64,000 nucleotides of DNA, from the NCBI GenBank assembly GCA_947476285.1, contig CANJPU010000001.1, forward strand, positions 62,001 to 126,000. Reading direction: 5' to 3'. Below, piece after piece: positions 51,954 to 57,588 of the stretch. The first letter of the stretch is position 1, and the number at the start of each line of letters is the position of its first letter. Both the position numbers and the translations under genes were made by a program. A model generated the notes under the pieces. That model was not told the origin of the DNA. It did no database searches and saw only the letters and a list, made by a program, of their open reading frames with translations. Source of the stretch: Comamonadaceae bacterium (GTDB taxonomy: Bacteria > Pseudomonadota > Gammaproteobacteria > Burkholderiales > Burkholderiaceae_C).

Positions 51954-53780
51954 ATGAACATCGGATACATCGGCCTGGGCGCCATGGGCGGCGCGCTGGC
52001 CCGCCAATTGATTGGCAAGCACACGCTCACCGTGTGGGACATCAACACATCTGCGGTGGCCGCTTTTGAAAAGTTGGGCGCCCGCGTGGCGCACAGCGCC
52101 GCCGAGCTGGCTCGCCAGTGCGAGGTCGTGATACTGTGTCTGCCGCGCAGCTCCGATGTGCGTCAAGTGGTCTTTGGCGCCGATGGCTTGGCGCAGGGCC
52201 TCGCCGCCGGCACACTGGTGATCGACCAGACCAGCGGCTTCCCCAGCGAGACCCGGACCATCGCGCAGCAGTTGGCCGAACGCGGCGTGGCGATGATCGA
52301 TGCGCCGGTCTCCGGCGGCATCAGCGCCGCCAACGCGGGCACCATCACCATCATGGTGTCCGGCCCTGATGATGCGTACGAAAACGCACTTCCCGTGTTG
52401 AGCGCAATCAGCCCGAACGTGCTGCGCTGCGGCGCGCGTGTGGGCGATGCCCAGGCCATGAAGCTGGTCAACAACGTGCTGAGCGCCGGTTGCCGGCTGG
52501 CCACGCTGGAAGTGGTGGCGATGGGCCGCAAAATGGGCCTGTCGCTGGCGTCGATGACGGATGTCATCAACAAGGGCTCGGGGCGCAACCGCACCTCCAA
52601 GCTCATGCTGCAGTCCATCGTGGACGGCAAGCCCGCGTCTTCCAGTTTCGCCATGTCGCTGATGCTCAAGGACATGAACCAGGCCCTTTCGCTGGGCATG
52701 GAGTGTGGCGCGCCCATGGCCCTCACCAACATCGTTCGCGGGCTGCTGCAGATCGGCGTCAATACGCTGGGCGAGAAGGCGCAGCTAGAGCAGGTTCTGG
52801 GGCTGATCGAATCGCTCGCAGGCACGCAAATCGTCACGCCCGGTGATCAAGCACAGGCCAAGGCGCCCACAGCAGTAGCGCACGGTGCGAAAGATCTCCG
52901 TGTGGGCTATGTGGGCCTGGGTGTGATGGGCGGTGCGCTGGTGCGCCGCCTGATGCTTTCGCGCAAGATGACGGTCTTCGATGTGCGCCGGGAAGTCGTG
53001 CGCGAGTTTCAGTCCGAAGGCGCCGTGGGCGCCACCGACCTGCCCTCACTGGCACGCGAGTGCGATGTGATCGTCATCTGCGTGCCGACCTCGGCGATCG
53101 TGCGTGAGGTGGTGTTCGGAAAGGGCGGCCTGGCCGAGGGCTTAAGCCCGGGCAAGATCGTGATCGACCAGACAACCGGCGACCCGACGCTGACCCGTGC
53201 CATCGGCACCGACCTTCAGAAACTCGGCGTCGCACTGGTGGACGCACCGGTATCGGGTGGCCCACGCGGCGCCGTGGCCGGCACCATCGCCATCATGTGC
53301 GGTGGACCGCGCGTCGCCTTCGACAAAGTGCTGCCGATCCTGGAGTCAGTCAGTCCAAACATCGTGTACTGCGGCGACACCGGCAATGGCCACGCATCCA
53401 AGCTGATCAACAACGCTGTGGCCTCCTGCAACCGCCTGCTCACCTACGAGGCAGCAGCGCTGGGCGTCAAGTATGGCCTGTCGATCGCCGACATGAACAA
53501 GGTGATCAACACCAGCACCGGATGGAACGGCGCTTCCGAACGCATCCTGCCGGTGCTGGCCCAGGACGGGCAGACAGCGAACTTCCAGCTCGCGCTGATG
53601 GTGAAAGACTTGAAGCTCGCATCGCAGATGGCCATGAGTTGCGGCGCCCCGATGTTGGTCGCCAACGCCGTGCGCAGCCTCTTCGAAATTGGGGCATACG
53701 AGCTGGGCGGCACATCCAACCTCGACGCGATGGCGCATCTGTTTGAGGCGATGGCGGACATCAAGTTTGCAGACGCCTGA
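51954..53780 (+). CDS. two fused 3-hydroxyisobutyrate-dehydrogenase-type enzymes
   Basis: A 608-residue protein made of two complete beta-hydroxyacid dehydrogenases. Copy 1 (residues 1-292): GYIGLGAMGG, IDAPVSGG (115-122), catalytic Lys170 in AQAMKLVNN. Copy 2 (about 315-608): GYVGLGVMGG (318-327), VDAPVSGG (429-436), Lys483 in HASKLINN. A 20-residue Ala/Pro/Gln linker joins them. Single enzymes of this family are about 300 residues, so this is a genuine fusion within one frame. Both active sites look intact, so it may make an obligate intramolecular dimer or oxidise two successive intermediates. It lies between CMD and amidohydrolase genes. Confidence 0.92.
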   Translation: MNIGYIGLGAMGGALARQLIGKHTLTVWDINTSAVAAFEKLGARVAHSAAELARQCEVVILCLPRSSDVRQVVFGADGLAQGLAAGTLVIDQTSGFPSETRTIAQQLAERGVAMIDAPVSGGISAANAGTITIMVSGPDDAYENALPVLSAISPNVLRCGARVGDAQAMKLVNNVLSAGCRLATLEVVAMGRKMGLSLASMTDVINKGSGRNRTSKLMLQSIVDGKPASSSFAMSLMLKDMNQALSLGMECGAPMALTNIVRGLLQIGVNTLGEKAQLEQVLGLIESLAGTQIVTPGDQAQAKAPTAVAHGAKDLRVGYVGLGVMGGALVRRLMLSRKMTVFDVRREVVREFQSEGAVGATDLPSLARECDVIVICVPTSAIVREVVFGKGGLAEGLSPGKIVIDQTTGDPTLTRAIGTDLQKLGVALVDAPVSGGPRGAVAGTIAIMCGGPRVAFDKVLPILESVSPNIVYCGDTGNGHASKLINNAVASCNRLLTYEAAALGVKYGLSIADMNKVINTSTGWNGASERILPVLAQDGQTANFQLALMVKDLKLASQMAMSCGAPMLVANAVRSLFEIGAYELGGTSNLDAMAHLFEAMADIKFADA

Positions 53781-53789
53781 GAAGCTCGT

Positions 53790-54854
53790 ATGAGTGTGTC
53801 CACCCCCGCCCCACCCCACCCATCGGTTTTCGGCCAGACCCAGCGGCCCAATGAAGAATGGCTGGCCCGCGCCGTGCCCGAGCCGGCGCTGGAGCCCGAG
53901 CTTCCCATTGTCGATCCGCATGTGCATTTCTGGCACCACAAGAGCGGCTACAAATACTTCATCGAAGAGTTCGCACGCGACGCCTCGGACAGCGGCCACC
54001 AGATTGAAGCCACCGTGTTCGTCGAGTGCAACGCGATGTACCGCGCCGGTGGGCCAGAGCACCTCAAGTGCGTGGGTGAGACCGAGTTCGCTGTTGGCAT
54101 GGCGGCGATGGCAGCGAGCGGCAAGTACACATCCACCCGGGCCGGCGCTGGCATCGTGGCGTTTGCCGATCTGACGCTGGGCGAGCGCACACGCGAAACC
54201 ATGCAAGCCCATCTCGAAGCCGCCAACGGCCGCCTTCGCGGCGTGCGGCAAAGAGCCAAGTGGGACGCCGACCCCATCGTGCGCGGCCCGGTGAGCGCGG
54301 ATCGCCCCCATCTGCTGCTGGACCCTGCCTTGGGCAAGGGCCTGGATCTGCTTACCTCCATGGGCCTGGCCTTCGATGCCAGCATCTACCATCCGCAGCT
54401 GCCCGATGTGGCGGCACTGGCGCGCGCGCACCCCGATGCGAACATCGTCGTCATTCACTCCGGCAGCCCCGTGGGACATTCATCCTATGCAGGCAAAGAG
54501 GCAGAGAACCACGCGGTCTGGCTGGCCGGCATGAAAGAGCTGGCCAAGTGTCCGAACGTGTCGGTCAAAATGGGCGGGCTGTTGATGTGCCTGGGCAATT
54601 TTGATTTCACACAGGCCAAGGCGCCACCGAGTTCCGAGCTGCTGGCCCGCTTGTGGCAGCCCTACATCGAACCGTGCATCGAACTGCTCGGCGCGCACCG
54701 CTGCATGGTCTCGTCGAATTTTCCGGTTGACAAGGCGGGCGTCACCTACAACACCATGTGGAACATGTTCAAGCGGATCACTGCTGGGTGCTCGGCCGAC
54801 GAGAAGAAGCTGATCTTCGGCGGTACTGCCAAGCGGGTGTATCGGCTGGATTGA
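53790..54854 (+). CDS. amidohydrolase family 2 (PF04909) metal-dependent hydrolase
   Basis: A 354-residue paralogue of the protein at 1696-2757. PIVDPHVHFWHHKSGYKY holds the H-x-H metal motif, IVVIHSGSPVGHSSYAGKEAE the later His, and VSSNFPVDKAGVTYNTMWNMFKR the C-terminal barrel motif. It probably opens a lactone or decarboxylates a ring-derived acid. It starts 9 bp after the tandem dehydrogenase gene, in the same operon. Confidence 0.88.
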   Translation: MSVSTPAPPHPSVFGQTQRPNEEWLARAVPEPALEPELPIVDPHVHFWHHKSGYKYFIEEFARDASDSGHQIEATVFVECNAMYRAGGPEHLKCVGETEFAVGMAAMAASGKYTSTRAGAGIVAFADLTLGERTRETMQAHLEAANGRLRGVRQRAKWDADPIVRGPVSADRPHLLLDPALGKGLDLLTSMGLAFDASIYHPQLPDVAALARAHPDANIVVIHSGSPVGHSSYAGKEAENHAVWLAGMKELAKCPNVSVKMGGLLMCLGNFDFTQAKAPPSSELLARLWQPYIEPCIELLGAHRCMVSSNFPVDKAGVTYNTMWNMFKRITAGCSADEKKLIFGGTAKRVYRLD

Positions 54855-54872: not shown

Positions 54873-54931
54873 ATGTCCATCATTTATGGACATATGTCCC
54901 TCATTCAGGGATAAAAAGCCATTATTGATGG
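54873..54931. promoter_or_regulatory. three dyads spaced exactly 21 bp apart
   Basis: ATGTCCAT-N5-ATGGACAT (54873-54893), TCCCT-N5-AGGGA (54897-54911) and CCAT-N5-ATGG (54919-54931) have centres at 54883, 54904 and 54925. Equal 5-nt spacers of the type (C/T)ATTN and 21-bp spacing, two helical turns, put all sites on the same DNA face. They lie directly upstream of TATAAT at 54933-54938 and 55 bp before the winged-helix/nucleotidyltransferase gene, so they are likely its operator array. Confidence 0.7.
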
Positions 54932-54932
54932 A

Positions 54933-54938
54933 TATAAT
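54933..54938 (+). promoter_or_regulatory. TATAAT -10 element
   Basis: A perfect -10 hexamer just after the dyad array. No good -35 hexamer sits 16-18 bp upstream; the third dyad occupies that place. Regulated or activator-assisted transcription is suggested. Confidence 0.5.
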
Positions 54939-54985
54939 GAGCGCCTGATCCCTTCAATAGGGACGTTAATCTACCAAGCATCGTC

Positions 54986-55564
54986 ATGGGAGCTGCTGAC
55001 TTTCTATTCACGCCAAGCATTCAAAAAGTGCTTGCAGCCACTCTGACGCAACCCGATCGCGCCTACACGCTACGGGAGCTGATGAGCATCGCATCCAAGG
55101 GGCGCGGCGGAGCTGCGTTGCAGATTGAAAGGCTGCTGGCGGCCGGCGTGCTGGTAGAGGAGCGTCGTCGAGGGCGCCAGCGCAGCATCAAAGCCAACAC
55201 GGCGTACTTTCTGTACCCGGAGCTCAGCAGCATCGCCAGAAAGTCCTTCGGAATGAAAGAGCCGCTGCTGCGCGCTCTTGAGCCCTTTGCCCAGAACATC
55301 CAGGAGGCCTTCGTCTTTGGCTCAGTGGCCAAGGGAACCGATGGGCCTCGAAGTGACATCGATCTGGCAGTGATTGGGACGGCGTCTCTCATCGATCTGA
55401 ACTCGGCCTTGCACGCAATCGAGCAGGAACTGGGCCGAGCGGTTCACCTGAGCCTGTATGACCCCCAGGAGTGGCGCGAGCTCCTGACGACAGACCCGGT
55501 GATAGCTCAGATTGCGCAGGGGCCAAGACTTGAGGTGGTCCTGCATCCTAGAAACAGCAGTTGA
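54986..55564 (+). CDS. winged-helix/minimal nucleotidyltransferase fusion
   Basis: A 192-residue protein. Residues 5-75 resemble a winged helix-turn-helix (YTLRELMSIASKGRGGAALQ, then IERLLAAGVLVEERRRGRQR, a wing-like basic stretch). Residues 95-192 form a minimal nucleotidyltransferase: FGSVAKGTDGPRSDIDLAVIG, with Gly-Ser at 112-113 and metal-binding Asp124 and Asp126. Such domains act as AMP-transferring antitoxins or regulators beside HEPN proteins. The last codons and stop lie inside the left terminal repeat of the element at 55545-55782, so the original C-terminus may have been changed. A HEPN-like gene follows the element. Confidence 0.8.
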   Translation: MGAADFLFTPSIQKVLAATLTQPDRAYTLRELMSIASKGRGGAALQIERLLAAGVLVEERRRGRQRSIKANTAYFLYPELSSIARKSFGMKEPLLRALEPFAQNIQEAFVFGSVAKGTDGPRSDIDLAVIGTASLIDLNSALHAIEQELGRAVHLSLYDPQEWRELLTTDPVIAQIAQGPRLEVVLHPRNSS

Positions 55565-55782
55565 CCGCTTATTTTCAACAGGAAGTGCCCGTGAGCATTG
55601 AGTTTCTTGGCCTTGAAGTTCCTCACCCATTGGGTGAGAGCGCTACGCACTCGATTGGGTGCCTGGCAAGCCCGCTGGCGGCGTTGCTCCTCCTTGCAGG
55701 CATCAGCCTGCTGCGTCGTCGCGCCTTGCCATCGGGCTTGCCAGGCGCCCACTCAAGCGCGTCCAACTGCCGTTTCTAGGAT
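55545..55782. mobile_element. 238-bp MITE-like palindromic element
   Basis: Terminal inverted repeats of about 20 bp: ATCCTAGAAACAGCAGTTG at the left end and the complement of CAACTGCCGTTTCTAGGAT at the right (one mismatch plus an indel just inside). Inside are CTCACCCA-T-TGGGTGAG (55622-55638) and an 18-bp stem, 55657-55674 against 55733-55750 with one mismatch. No transposase. It lies exactly between the nucleotidyltransferase and HEPN-like coding regions and supplies the stop codon of the first. No clear target duplication is seen. Confidence 0.65.
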
Positions 55783-55783
55783 C

Positions 55784-56230
55784 ATGATCAGACCGCCTGA
55801 ATACGAGAACCTGATCAAGTCGGGAGCCTTTGCCGCCGTAGCGGCGACGCAAGGGGCGGTCGGCCAGTACTTGAAGAACGCTTCAGACTACCTGGAAGCA
55901 GCCAGCTCCATGGACCCCAGCAAACCAATGCTGGCGTTCACCATGGCGTACGAGGGCTTTTATTGCCTGGTGCAAGGCGTGCTGGAGTTTCATACGGTGC
56001 GCACAAAAGACGCCGGACGCAATCTTGCCATTCAGAGAGTAGCAGGCGACCTCAAGCTGAGCGTTGGCGAGTTCAAGTTGGTGACCGACGCGCACAGTCG
56101 CCGCAATGGGACGACCTACACATCACCCTTCCCGCCGGTGACCAAAGCAGAGGCGAGCGCCTTGGTCAGTCTGCTGGCGAAGTGCTTGCCCCTGGCTTGT
56201 GGTCTGACCGGAACTGCTTTGGTCACGTAG
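55784..56230 (+). CDS. HEPN-like protein, putative partner of the nucleotidyltransferase
   Basis: A 148-residue all-helical protein. The layout fits a HEPN domain: an N-terminal helix pair, YEGFYCLVQGVLEFHTVRTK in the middle, and DAHSRRNGTTYTSPFPPVTK then a last helix (ASALVSLLAKCLPLA). The R-R-N-G-T-T-Y stretch (106-112) stands where HEPN RNases have R-x4-6-H; the terminal His is Tyr here, and His104 lies just before. RNase activity is therefore uncertain. ATG 55784 begins immediately after the MITE-like element; the longer frame upstream lies inside that element. Confidence 0.55.
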   Translation: MIRPPEYENLIKSGAFAAVAATQGAVGQYLKNASDYLEAASSMDPSKPMLAFTMAYEGFYCLVQGVLEFHTVRTKDAGRNLAIQRVAGDLKLSVGEFKLVTDAHSRRNGTTYTSPFPPVTKAEASALVSLLAKCLPLACGLTGTALVT

Positions 56231-56355
56231 AGCGCCGCCGACCTTCGCAACCTATGGTCAGGCCAACTTACGCTGCCCCACAATAAATGCAACTCGACGC
56301 GACCGGACAGGGCCCGGAAAATGGCCGTATTGTTCCTTCCTGTGAAAGTCGAGCT

Positions 56356-57588
56356 ATGTCAAGCAGCCCAACGCCCCTGCCCCTGCCCCTGACAGGCGTC
56401 AAAGTCATCGAACTGTGTCACCTGATCGCCGGCCCCTACTGCGCCCAGATGCTGGCCGACGAGGGCGCACAAGTGATCAAGGTGGAGCCGCCCGGCGGCG
56501 AGCTCACCCGCCAGCGCGAGCCGATGCGCATCGTCGATGGCGTCAAGAGCTCGGCCTATTACGCTTCGCTCAACCGGGACAAGCAAAGCCTGGTGCTGGA
56601 TTTGAAAAACGCCGAGGGCGCGGCTGTGCTGACCCGTCTGCTGGAATCGGCGGACGTGTTCGTGACCAATATGCGCGCCGCTGCGCTGGAGCGGCTGGGC
56701 TTGCACCCCAAGACATTGCATGAGCGCTATCCCCGGCTTGTCATCGCATGCATCTCTGGCTTTGGCATCGACAACTCGGGCGAGCATGCCGATCGCGCGG
56801 GCCTGGCCATGGTGGCTGAGGCCATGGCAGGCGCCACCGGGCTCACACGCGATCACTCAGGAAACCCCGTCTGGTGCGGCTTCGCCCTGGGCGACATCAC
56901 AGCGGCCATGTCAACGCATGCGGCCATCTTGCTTGCGTTGCGCAACCAAGAGCGTCACGGCCTGGGCCGCGTCATCGACATCGGTCTGGTCGAGAGCATG
57001 CTGCCCATGGTGTCAGTTGCCATGGGCCGCGTGCAGGTGGAGGACGACGCCGTCTCGTCCTTCTCTGGCTCCAATGGTTTTCACGGCGTGCCGTATGGCG
57101 CGTTTCCTGCGGCCGACGGTGCGGTGAACATCGGCGTCAACCGCGACGAATTCTGGCGACGCCTGTGCGATGCGATGGGCCGCCCCGAGCTGGGCACCGA
57201 TGCACGCTATGCGACCTACGTAGAGCGCGCCAAGCGTCAGCGAGAAGTGCATGGCATCACAGAGGACTTCACCCGGGCGCATACACGCGCGGACATCACG
57301 CGCAAGCTGGTTGAAGTGGATGTGCCCGTGGCCGGCATCTTGAGCATGGAAGAGGTGATAGCCGACGACTACCTTCACAAGCGCGGCGCCTTGGTTCAGG
57401 TGGATGACGGCTTCGGCGGCAGCTATACCTTGCCAGCCAATGCGGCCTGGTCCGACACCGGCGGCCACATTCCGCGCGTGCCTCGCCTAGGCGAGCATCG
57501 CGATGTGGTGCTCACCAAAGAACTGGGTATGTTGCCCGGCGACATCGACCGCCTTGCGCAAGCTGGCGCCTTCGGACCGGTTCGCTAG
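56356..57588 (+). CDS. CaiB/BaiF-family CoA-transferase
   Basis: A 410-residue class III CoA-transferase. LTGVKVIELCHLIAGPYCAQ, then MLADEGAQVIKVEPPGGE opens the protein; the usual catalytic Asp is in the conserved segment around DRAGLAMVAEAMAGATGLT; GRVIDIGLVESMLPM and GILSMEEVIADDYLHKRG complete the family pattern. ATG 56356 is used instead of an in-frame ATG 69 bases upstream. Followed after 24 bp by a MaoC-type gene, probably in one transcript. Related to but distinct from the truncated copy at base 1. Confidence 0.9.
   Translation: MSSSPTPLPLPLTGVKVIELCHLIAGPYCAQMLADEGAQVIKVEPPGGELTRQREPMRIVDGVKSSAYYASLNRDKQSLVLDLKNAEGAAVLTRLLESADVFVTNMRAAALERLGLHPKTLHERYPRLVIACISGFGIDNSGEHADRAGLAMVAEAMAGATGLTRDHSGNPVWCGFALGDITAAMSTHAAILLALRNQERHGLGRVIDIGLVESMLPMVSVAMGRVQVEDDAVSSFSGSNGFHGVPYGAFPAADGAVNIGVNRDEFWRRLCDAMGRPELGTDARYATYVERAKRQREVHGITEDFTRAHTRADITRKLVEVDVPVAGILSMEEVIADDYLHKRGALVQVDDGFGGSYTLPANAAWSDTGGHIPRVPRLGEHRDVVLTKELGMLPGDIDRLAQAGAFGPVR

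Follow-up and report, generated by a model that had tools for sequence, protein, structure and literature searches.

A PDC-M05 nucleotidyltransferase-HEPN gene pair with a predicted winged helix, promoter palindromes and an inserted MITE-like repeat

Background

HEPN/MNT pairs have been described as the most abundant predicted type of toxin-antitoxin system (PMC7641770). In the MntA/HepT pair (SO_3165/SO_3166; class I, type VII), the nucleotidyltransferase (NTase) gene comes first and its product carries the motif GSX10DXD. Its partner has the HEPN fold, the two genes overlap and palindromes are present at the promoter (PMC7641770, PMC4621449). MntA (SO_3165) binds its own promoter and represses it 1.6-fold, with no DNA-binding domain predicted in the protein (PMC4621449). 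Class II pairs, in which a HEPN protein of the family PF05168 is encoded beside the MNT, have GSX10DXD and one conserved tyrosine and lack RX4H; according to Yao et al., this class needs study (PMC7641770). HEPN families devoid of R-x4-6-H are tabulated in Table 1 of PMC3710099, where Anantharaman et al. state that such motif-less proteins can still be toxic. For the Legionella HEPN-MNT pair (8xeh, 8xeo), it was reported that RX4HXY of the HEPN protein probably does not form the catalytic site (PMC11586414); terms for DNA binding and autoregulation are absent from the main text of that paper.

PDC-M05 is a candidate defence system composed of a nucleotidyltransferase and a HEPN-domain protein, with an unconfirmed antiviral role (PMC12988326). 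In the transcriptome of phage-infected Burkholderia cenocepacia K56-2, the PDC operon changed as a whole and PDC-M05A was upregulated (PMC12584637). The available passages of PMC12988326 mention neither a winged helix nor operator arrays, lost motifs or a decay bias. In the available text of openly licensed PMC papers, preprints set aside, we found no account of the winged-helix fusion, phased operators, decay bias, regulation or chemistry of this already catalogued family.

Here we describe a PDC-M05 pair in a stretch of 64,000 nucleotides (the window) from a Comamonadaceae bacterium. We propose that it is probably a toxin-antitoxin module of the HEPN/MNT type whose antitoxin serves as its own repressor.

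Results

The gene pair and its family

Two open reading frames (ORFs) of 192 and 148 codons lie on the same strand, 219 nt apart (Table 1). Upstream of them lies an amidohydrolase gene (53790-54854), and downstream one for a CoA-transferase family III protein (56287-57588). Positions 51954-53780 hold a single ORF of 608 amino acids with two tandem modules resembling 3-hydroxyisobutyrate dehydrogenase (NAD_binding_2 plus NAD_binding_11, two stretches each).

A sequence-only reading of the locus had described a 192-residue chain joining a winged-helix-like part to a minimal nucleotidyltransferase, and had taken the locus for a candidate toxin-antitoxin or regulatory module with a HEPN-like partner. 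The ORF is present and this general reading is supported. It mentioned neither the repeat inserted between the genes nor the existing catalogue entry, PDC-M05. We assign the pair to PDC-M05 because both proteins match the corresponding PADLOC profiles: PDC-M05A is matched by the 192-aa protein at 1.2e-48 and by 79/79 rows of the NTase alignment, PDC-M05B by the 148-aa protein at 1.4e-6 to 1.6e-6, and the PDC-M05B profile PDLC04373 by 60 of the 61 HEPN rows. Within PDC-M05 the pair is an ordinary member which nothing structural sets apart; the local insertion is peculiar to its own genome.

AbiE consists of two separate proteins, the winged-helix antitoxin AbiEi and the nucleotidyltransferase toxin AbiEii. 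It likewise combines a winged helix with a nucleotidyltransferase, whereas the pair described here has both in one chain. Identity with AbiE was rejected, since none of the PADLOC families listed at E <= 1 (13 and 1) is an AbiE model.

Table 1. Features of the locus, in window positions
Feature	Position	Strand	Basis
Operator-like palindrome P1, GTCCAT-N5-ATGGAC	54875..54891		sequence
Operator-like palindrome P2, GTCCCT-N5-AGGGAT, 21 bp after P1	54896..54912		sequence
Operator-like palindrome P3, AGCCAT-N5-ATGGAT (one mismatch), 21 bp after P2	54917..54933		sequence
Probable -10 box TATAAT, touching P3	54933..54938	+	sequence
Operator-like palindrome P4, ATCCCT-N5-AGGGAC, 31 bp after P3, between -10 box and start codon	54948..54964		sequence
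Winged helix-turn-helix (wHTH) plus minimal nucleotidyltransferase, 192 aa (PDC-M05A-like); probable antitoxin/autorepressor	54986..55564	+	profiles, model
GSX10DXD motif, exact (G112, S113, D124, D126)	55319..55363	+	alignment
MITE-like repeat, 234 bp; 17-bp terminal inverted repeats whose ends differ at one base (left CCTAGAAACAGCAGTTG; right, read inward, CCTAGAAACGGCAGTTG)	55547..55780		genome copies
HEPN-fold protein, 148 aa (PDC-M05B-like); probable toxin	55784..56230	+	profile, model
H104-x2-R107-N108-x3-Y112 signature of the HEPN-fold protein	56093..56119	+	alignment

The winged-helix nucleotidyltransferase

The model of the 192-aa protein (mean pLDDT 85.0, pTM 0.64) places a winged helix at about residues 10-70 (helices 10-21, 29-35 and 40-53; strands 56-62 and 65-70) and the NTase core at about residues 105-186. 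MntA-type antitoxins (7bxo, 8xeo) rank first among its PDB matches, with MarR-type regulators after them, and the N-terminal half gives MarR-type structural matches. The model and these matches agree with the earlier suggestion that the antitoxin-like enzyme carries its own DNA-binding domain. MarR_2 is matched in 58/79 NTase rows at E <= 0.1 (best 80 of 156 relatives), the window row having no match. The predicted winged helix and NTase thus share one chain, which would provide the DNA-binding domain expected of an autoregulated toxin-antitoxin operon.

In Pfam, the protein matches Polbeta (7.3e-9) and NTP_transf_2 (4.3e-8). Its score with the NCBIfam model MntA_antitoxin, 35.1 bits, is under the 60-bit cut-off, and among PDB sequences the NTase profile matches the Legionella HEPN-MNT pair best (8xeh, 8xeo; E 2.5e-5). 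The NTase alignment (A4) comprises the window protein and 78 of the best 80 of 156 relatives, L082 and L091 being left out. G112, S113, D124 and D126, found where the sequence-only reading had placed them, are invariant in 79/79 rows, and K116 is kept in 78/79. Column 154, which a single alignment to 2rff equates with the third metal-binding aspartate, contains N in 57, H in 11, S in 5, Q in 3, I in 1 and D in 2 of the 79 rows; by the same 2rff alignment, D71 of MntA is apparently replaced in 77/79. Given that this column is Asp in only 2/79 rows, AMPylation by the NTase half may have been lost.

The HEPN-fold partner

The confident model of the 148-aa protein (mean pLDDT 92.4, pTM 0.88) predicts the HEPN four-helix fold. 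Its top Foldseek match in the PDB, and the sole one with E < 0.001, is the HEPN protein AF0298 (2hsb; E 9.5e-4; TM 0.64/0.74, the latter by target length). Next come ST0689, three sacsin HEPN chains and TM0613 (1wol, 3o10, 1o3u), and the first six matches are all HEPN proteins. Compared with PDB sequences, the family profile finds 2hsb (0.0029) and the HEPN protein of 9xbd (0.019), together with unrelated AppA entries (0.029 and above). Structure prediction, proposed earlier as a check, therefore returned the HEPN fold. The PF05168 search proposed beside it was negative for the window protein, which matches no Pfam family at E <= 0.1; PF05168 is matched by 1/61 HEPN rows (best E 0.098).

The HEPN alignment (A3, from the best 80 of 156 loci) comprises the window protein and 60 of 64 relatives; L039, L066, L093 and L107 were left out as short. 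The previously noticed R-R-N-x3-Y stretch corresponds to R106-R107-N108...Y112. R107, N108 and Y112 are invariant in 61/61 rows, spanning 17-64% identity to the window protein, and H104 is present in 60. The motif had rightly been called non-canonical, R-x4-6-H being absent and R-N-x3-Y standing in its place in 61/61 rows; RX4HXY, which serves HepT as RNase and acceptor motif, is likewise absent from all 61 aligned rows. We infer that Y112 is a candidate AMPylation acceptor. Toxicity of the 148-aa protein is plausible, because motif-less HEPN proteins can be toxic according to PMC3710099.

Compared with MntA/HepT, the window family adds an N-terminal winged helix. A simple equation of the two is opposed by its HEPN protein without RX4HXY and its NTase without an apparent equivalent of the third metal-binding Asp. 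The Legionella HEPN protein also differs, retaining RX4HXY, which the window family lacks. With class II, the window family shares the missing RX4H, the conserved tyrosine and GSX10DXD, and the nearest solved fold, AF0298, is a PF05168-type UPF0332 protein; however, the window HEPN has no PF05168 match and its NTase bears a winged helix.

Linkage and distribution

Among 299 genomes of the family, 8 (own genome included) have a match to the 148-aa query. The NTase gene lies directly upstream of all 5 strong matches outside the own genome, whereas the 2 weak ones lack it. A distant HEPN-like protein (L029 in G125, about 30% identity) has no R-N-x3-Y, and no adjoining NTase gene was found.

Genome contigs were also scanned with the NTase alignment, and the best 80 of the 156 relatives obtained were retained; the two sets share records (L023, L025 and L026 correspond to L044, L054 and L045). 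A downstream ORF with R-N-x3-Y is present at 64 of these best 80 loci. In 62 of the 64, the order is NTase-HEPN with the genes overlapping by 1-38 nt, starts being those chosen by the analyst. The remaining 16 were read by the analyst as 7 broken or truncated HEPN remnants, 3 loci stopping at a contig end and 6 without a recognisable HEPN. The linkage of the two genes across genomes, whose absence the earlier reading would have taken as a refutation, is thus observed. L076, L107 and L109 have an upstream palindrome of a differing type, TTGAAGC...GCTTCAA; the HEPN protein of the first two reads K-Q-R-N and lacks the preceding His, and no HEPN is recognisable in L109.

The spread through the class is patchy (51/369 genomes). 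On plasmids, the NTase family was found in 29 of 72,556 records (E <= 1e-5) and the HEPN query in 1; among 50,697 phage records the NTase family was found in none (E <= 1e-5). No general defence-island context was seen in the 112 scanned of 148 flanking ORFs, selected by a crude rule: each PADLOC family had at most one member at E <= 1e-10, among the 25 of 94 listed. A B. cenocepacia locus from a strain other than K56-2 (L057) falls in the near clade. The apparent link to phages comes from a single transcriptome study, made in a different species (PMC12584637).

One-sided decay

Hits of the NTase and HEPN alignments in 369 genomes of the class were paired by coordinate. Among the matches listed, 62 NTases are intact, and their HEPN neighbour is intact in 38 cases, broken or partial in 14 and undetected in 10. 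Conversely, the 39 intact HEPNs among the matches listed have an intact NTase neighbour in 38 cases and a broken one in a single case. The 38 intact pairs include the window's own, and two identical ones come from a single genome. The asymmetry of 14:1 has a binomial p of 0.001 at even odds, even though the NTase presents the longer target. The 14 decayed HEPNs, spread over 13 genera, comprise 5 with in-frame stops, 4 split and 5 partial matches, and the latter are not proven pseudogenes; for the one partial checked of the five (G327), the contig continues for 1,500 bases.

In many genomes the searches scored part of the first-look candidates (up to 11 in one search, 8 in the other). From one match list 70 rows were used; those left out lie at about E 1e-7 and above, apart from two stronger short fragments (G498) and one more (G299). 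A HEPN fragment in G523 was counted as lacking an NTase, although a weak NTase fragment does adjoin it.

Because decay hits the HEPN gene beside an intact NTase and hardly ever the reverse, the HEPN protein appears harmful and the NTase protective, which suggests that the former is the toxin and the latter the antitoxin. The bias could also be strengthened by, or reflect, an additional role of the NTase as repressor.

Palindromes around the promoter

The phased operators proposed earlier are present as four palindromes of the common form RTCCnT-N5-AnGGAY (P1-P4, Table 1). A consensus scan found no sigma-70 promoter at the locus and no -35 partner for TATAAT. At <=1 mismatch, the pattern has 6 matches in the 64-kb window against 2.81 expected, and 9 of 100 shuffles reach 6. 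This number is unremarkable. Notable, instead, are the grouping of 4 of these 6 matches inside 90 bp and the conservation of the palindromes in relatives. Exact RTCCMT-N5-AKGGAY occurs three times in the 4.9-Mb genome, always at the locus and within 90 bp, and the reversed control pattern not at all. Since base composition alone predicts about 3.6 exact sites, it is their clustering and not their number that is unusual.

In near relatives, RTCCYT-N5-ARGGAY (<=1 mismatch) has 62 sites in 24/30 loci, against 0.26 per shuffled set. The commonest layout there (-91, -70, -43, -22) forms two pairs with 21-bp spacing, and a -10-like box overlaps a palindrome in 20/30 loci. Far relatives have another motif, TGCCCA-N3-TGGGYA (<=1 mismatch), with 40 sites in 31/48 loci against 0.08 per shuffled set, often also spaced by 21 bp. 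L069 and L091, with short upstream DNA, are not included in these counts, and both motifs were written after viewing the upstream regions, so that the shuffles control composition and not that choice.

Autoregulation through the winged helix would be the natural reading of the palindromes. Covariation between recognition helix and operator is suggestive only. One near-clade relative, L059, has palindromes of the far-clade type (CCCA...TGGG) together with a Q-R recognition helix, and it might reveal the residue that sets operator choice.

A MITE-like repeat between the genes

A 234-bp repeat, present in many copies in the genome, takes up most of the 219 nt between the two ORFs. At one end, the repeat contributes the final 5 codons of the NTase ORF together with the stop codon, and its other end sits 3 nt ahead of the HEPN start codon. 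Its terminal sequence occurs 59 times in the genome at <=1 mismatch, and the control never. Among 21 end pairs chosen from the list, 14 are 233-235 bp apart, 6 are 115-117 bp apart and one is 132 bp apart; the shorter class (about 117 bp) shares its ends with the palindromic 234-bp family. At 12/16 long copies the flanks carry a 5-bp duplication with 4 or 5 identical positions, against 18% between copies (permutation 0/10,000), and the copy in the window matches at 3/5 positions. We call the repeat MITE-like because such duplications flank 12 of the 16 long copies.

A genus-wide repeat was rejected: among 31 genomes of the genus, long copies are confined to the own genome, and two others have only matches of 32-45 bp. 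A plasmid-borne repeat was rejected as well, with one plasmid record matching at 69.8% identity. In the window no Rfam family reaches its gathering threshold, and a known RNA element was likewise rejected. Folded as RNA, the repeat yields -134.5 kcal/mol (z -9.0), and AGGA before the HEPN start codon is paired in the closing stem. A terminator scan found none at the locus. We infer that HEPN translation is probably uncoupled and reduced here by the insertion.

Discussion

The domains, the HEPN fold, the gene linkage, the one-sided decay, the conserved operators and the insertion were all obtained by computation. In the toxin-antitoxin reading that we favour, the winged helix of the 192-aa protein would bind the palindromes round the promoter and limit transcription, while the NTase half would bind, and probably modify, the HEPN partner and render it harmless. 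Loss or titration of the antitoxin, for example during phage infection, would derepress the operon and let the HEPN protein act, probably on RNA, through a site of R107, N108 and Y112 in place of RX4HXY. The MITE-like insertion, by turning the usual overlap into a 219-nt spacer with a stable hairpin, should uncouple HEPN translation and lower it.

The insertion may have gone further and silenced the module in this genome, the repeat blocking HEPN expression so that only the autoregulated NTase is made. The position of the repeat 3 nt before the HEPN start, the loss of the overlap seen in 62/64 relatives, the pairing of AGGA in the -134.5 kcal/mol fold and the frequent loss of HEPN in the family all point that way. 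The HEPN ORF is nevertheless intact and keeps H104, R107, N108 and Y112, the terminator scan found none, and the fold is that of a calculated RNA within a translated operon. We regard such silencing as quite conceivable, if not the outcome we expect.

Doubtful, in our judgement, is a purely binding antitoxin, whose NTase half would transfer no nucleotide and neutralise the HEPN protein by complex formation, with the winged helix providing autoregulation in type II style. Such an antitoxin would account for N, H, S, Q or I in place of the third metal carboxylate in 77/79 rows, and its winged helix and operators would be those of type II antitoxins. The conservation of G112, S113, D124 and D126 (79/79) and K116 (78/79), however, is difficult to account for if neither nucleotide nor metal is bound, and the acceptor-like Y112 is invariant (61/61).

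The pair might also be a domesticated regulator, in which the wHTH-NTase controls its own operon only and the HEPN protein is a catalytically dead binding subunit. RX4H is indeed absent, metabolic genes flank the pair, and MNT-fused HEPN domains typically lack the RNase residues according to Anantharaman et al. (PMC3710099). Against this stand the invariance of R107, N108 and Y112 across 17-64% identity, the patchy spread (51/369 genomes of the class, 29 plasmid records with the NTase family) and the one-sided decay of HEPN, and we consider domestication unlikely. Reversed roles, in which the NTase would be the toxin and the HEPN protein its antitoxin, have precedents in the nucleotidyltransferase toxins AbiEii and MenT and in the first MNT-HEPN prediction, which took MNT as the toxin (PMC2701414), yet we reject them as highly improbable, because among the matches listed 24/62 intact NTases have a HEPN neighbour that is broken, partial or undetected and 1/39 intact HEPNs has a broken NTase neighbour, and AbiE models are absent among the PADLOC families listed at E <= 1.

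PDC-M05 offers a clean test case for the branch without RX4HXY, with invariant residues, dedicated operators and a decay pattern that predicts the toxic partner. The family would further illustrate how a true repressor domain was acquired by an MNT antitoxin, MntA repressing only 1.6-fold without a recognisable one (PMC4621449). A more speculative and rather improbable extension is that PDC-M05 forms a distinct, self-sensing branch of HEPN/MNT systems, in which operator recognition is joined to the NTase, its nucleotide state or the HEPN protein sets the level of repression, and the HEPN protein acts via H-x2-R-N-x3-Y. If this were true, binding of a nucleotide or of phage material by the NTase would derepress the operon and release the toxin at once.
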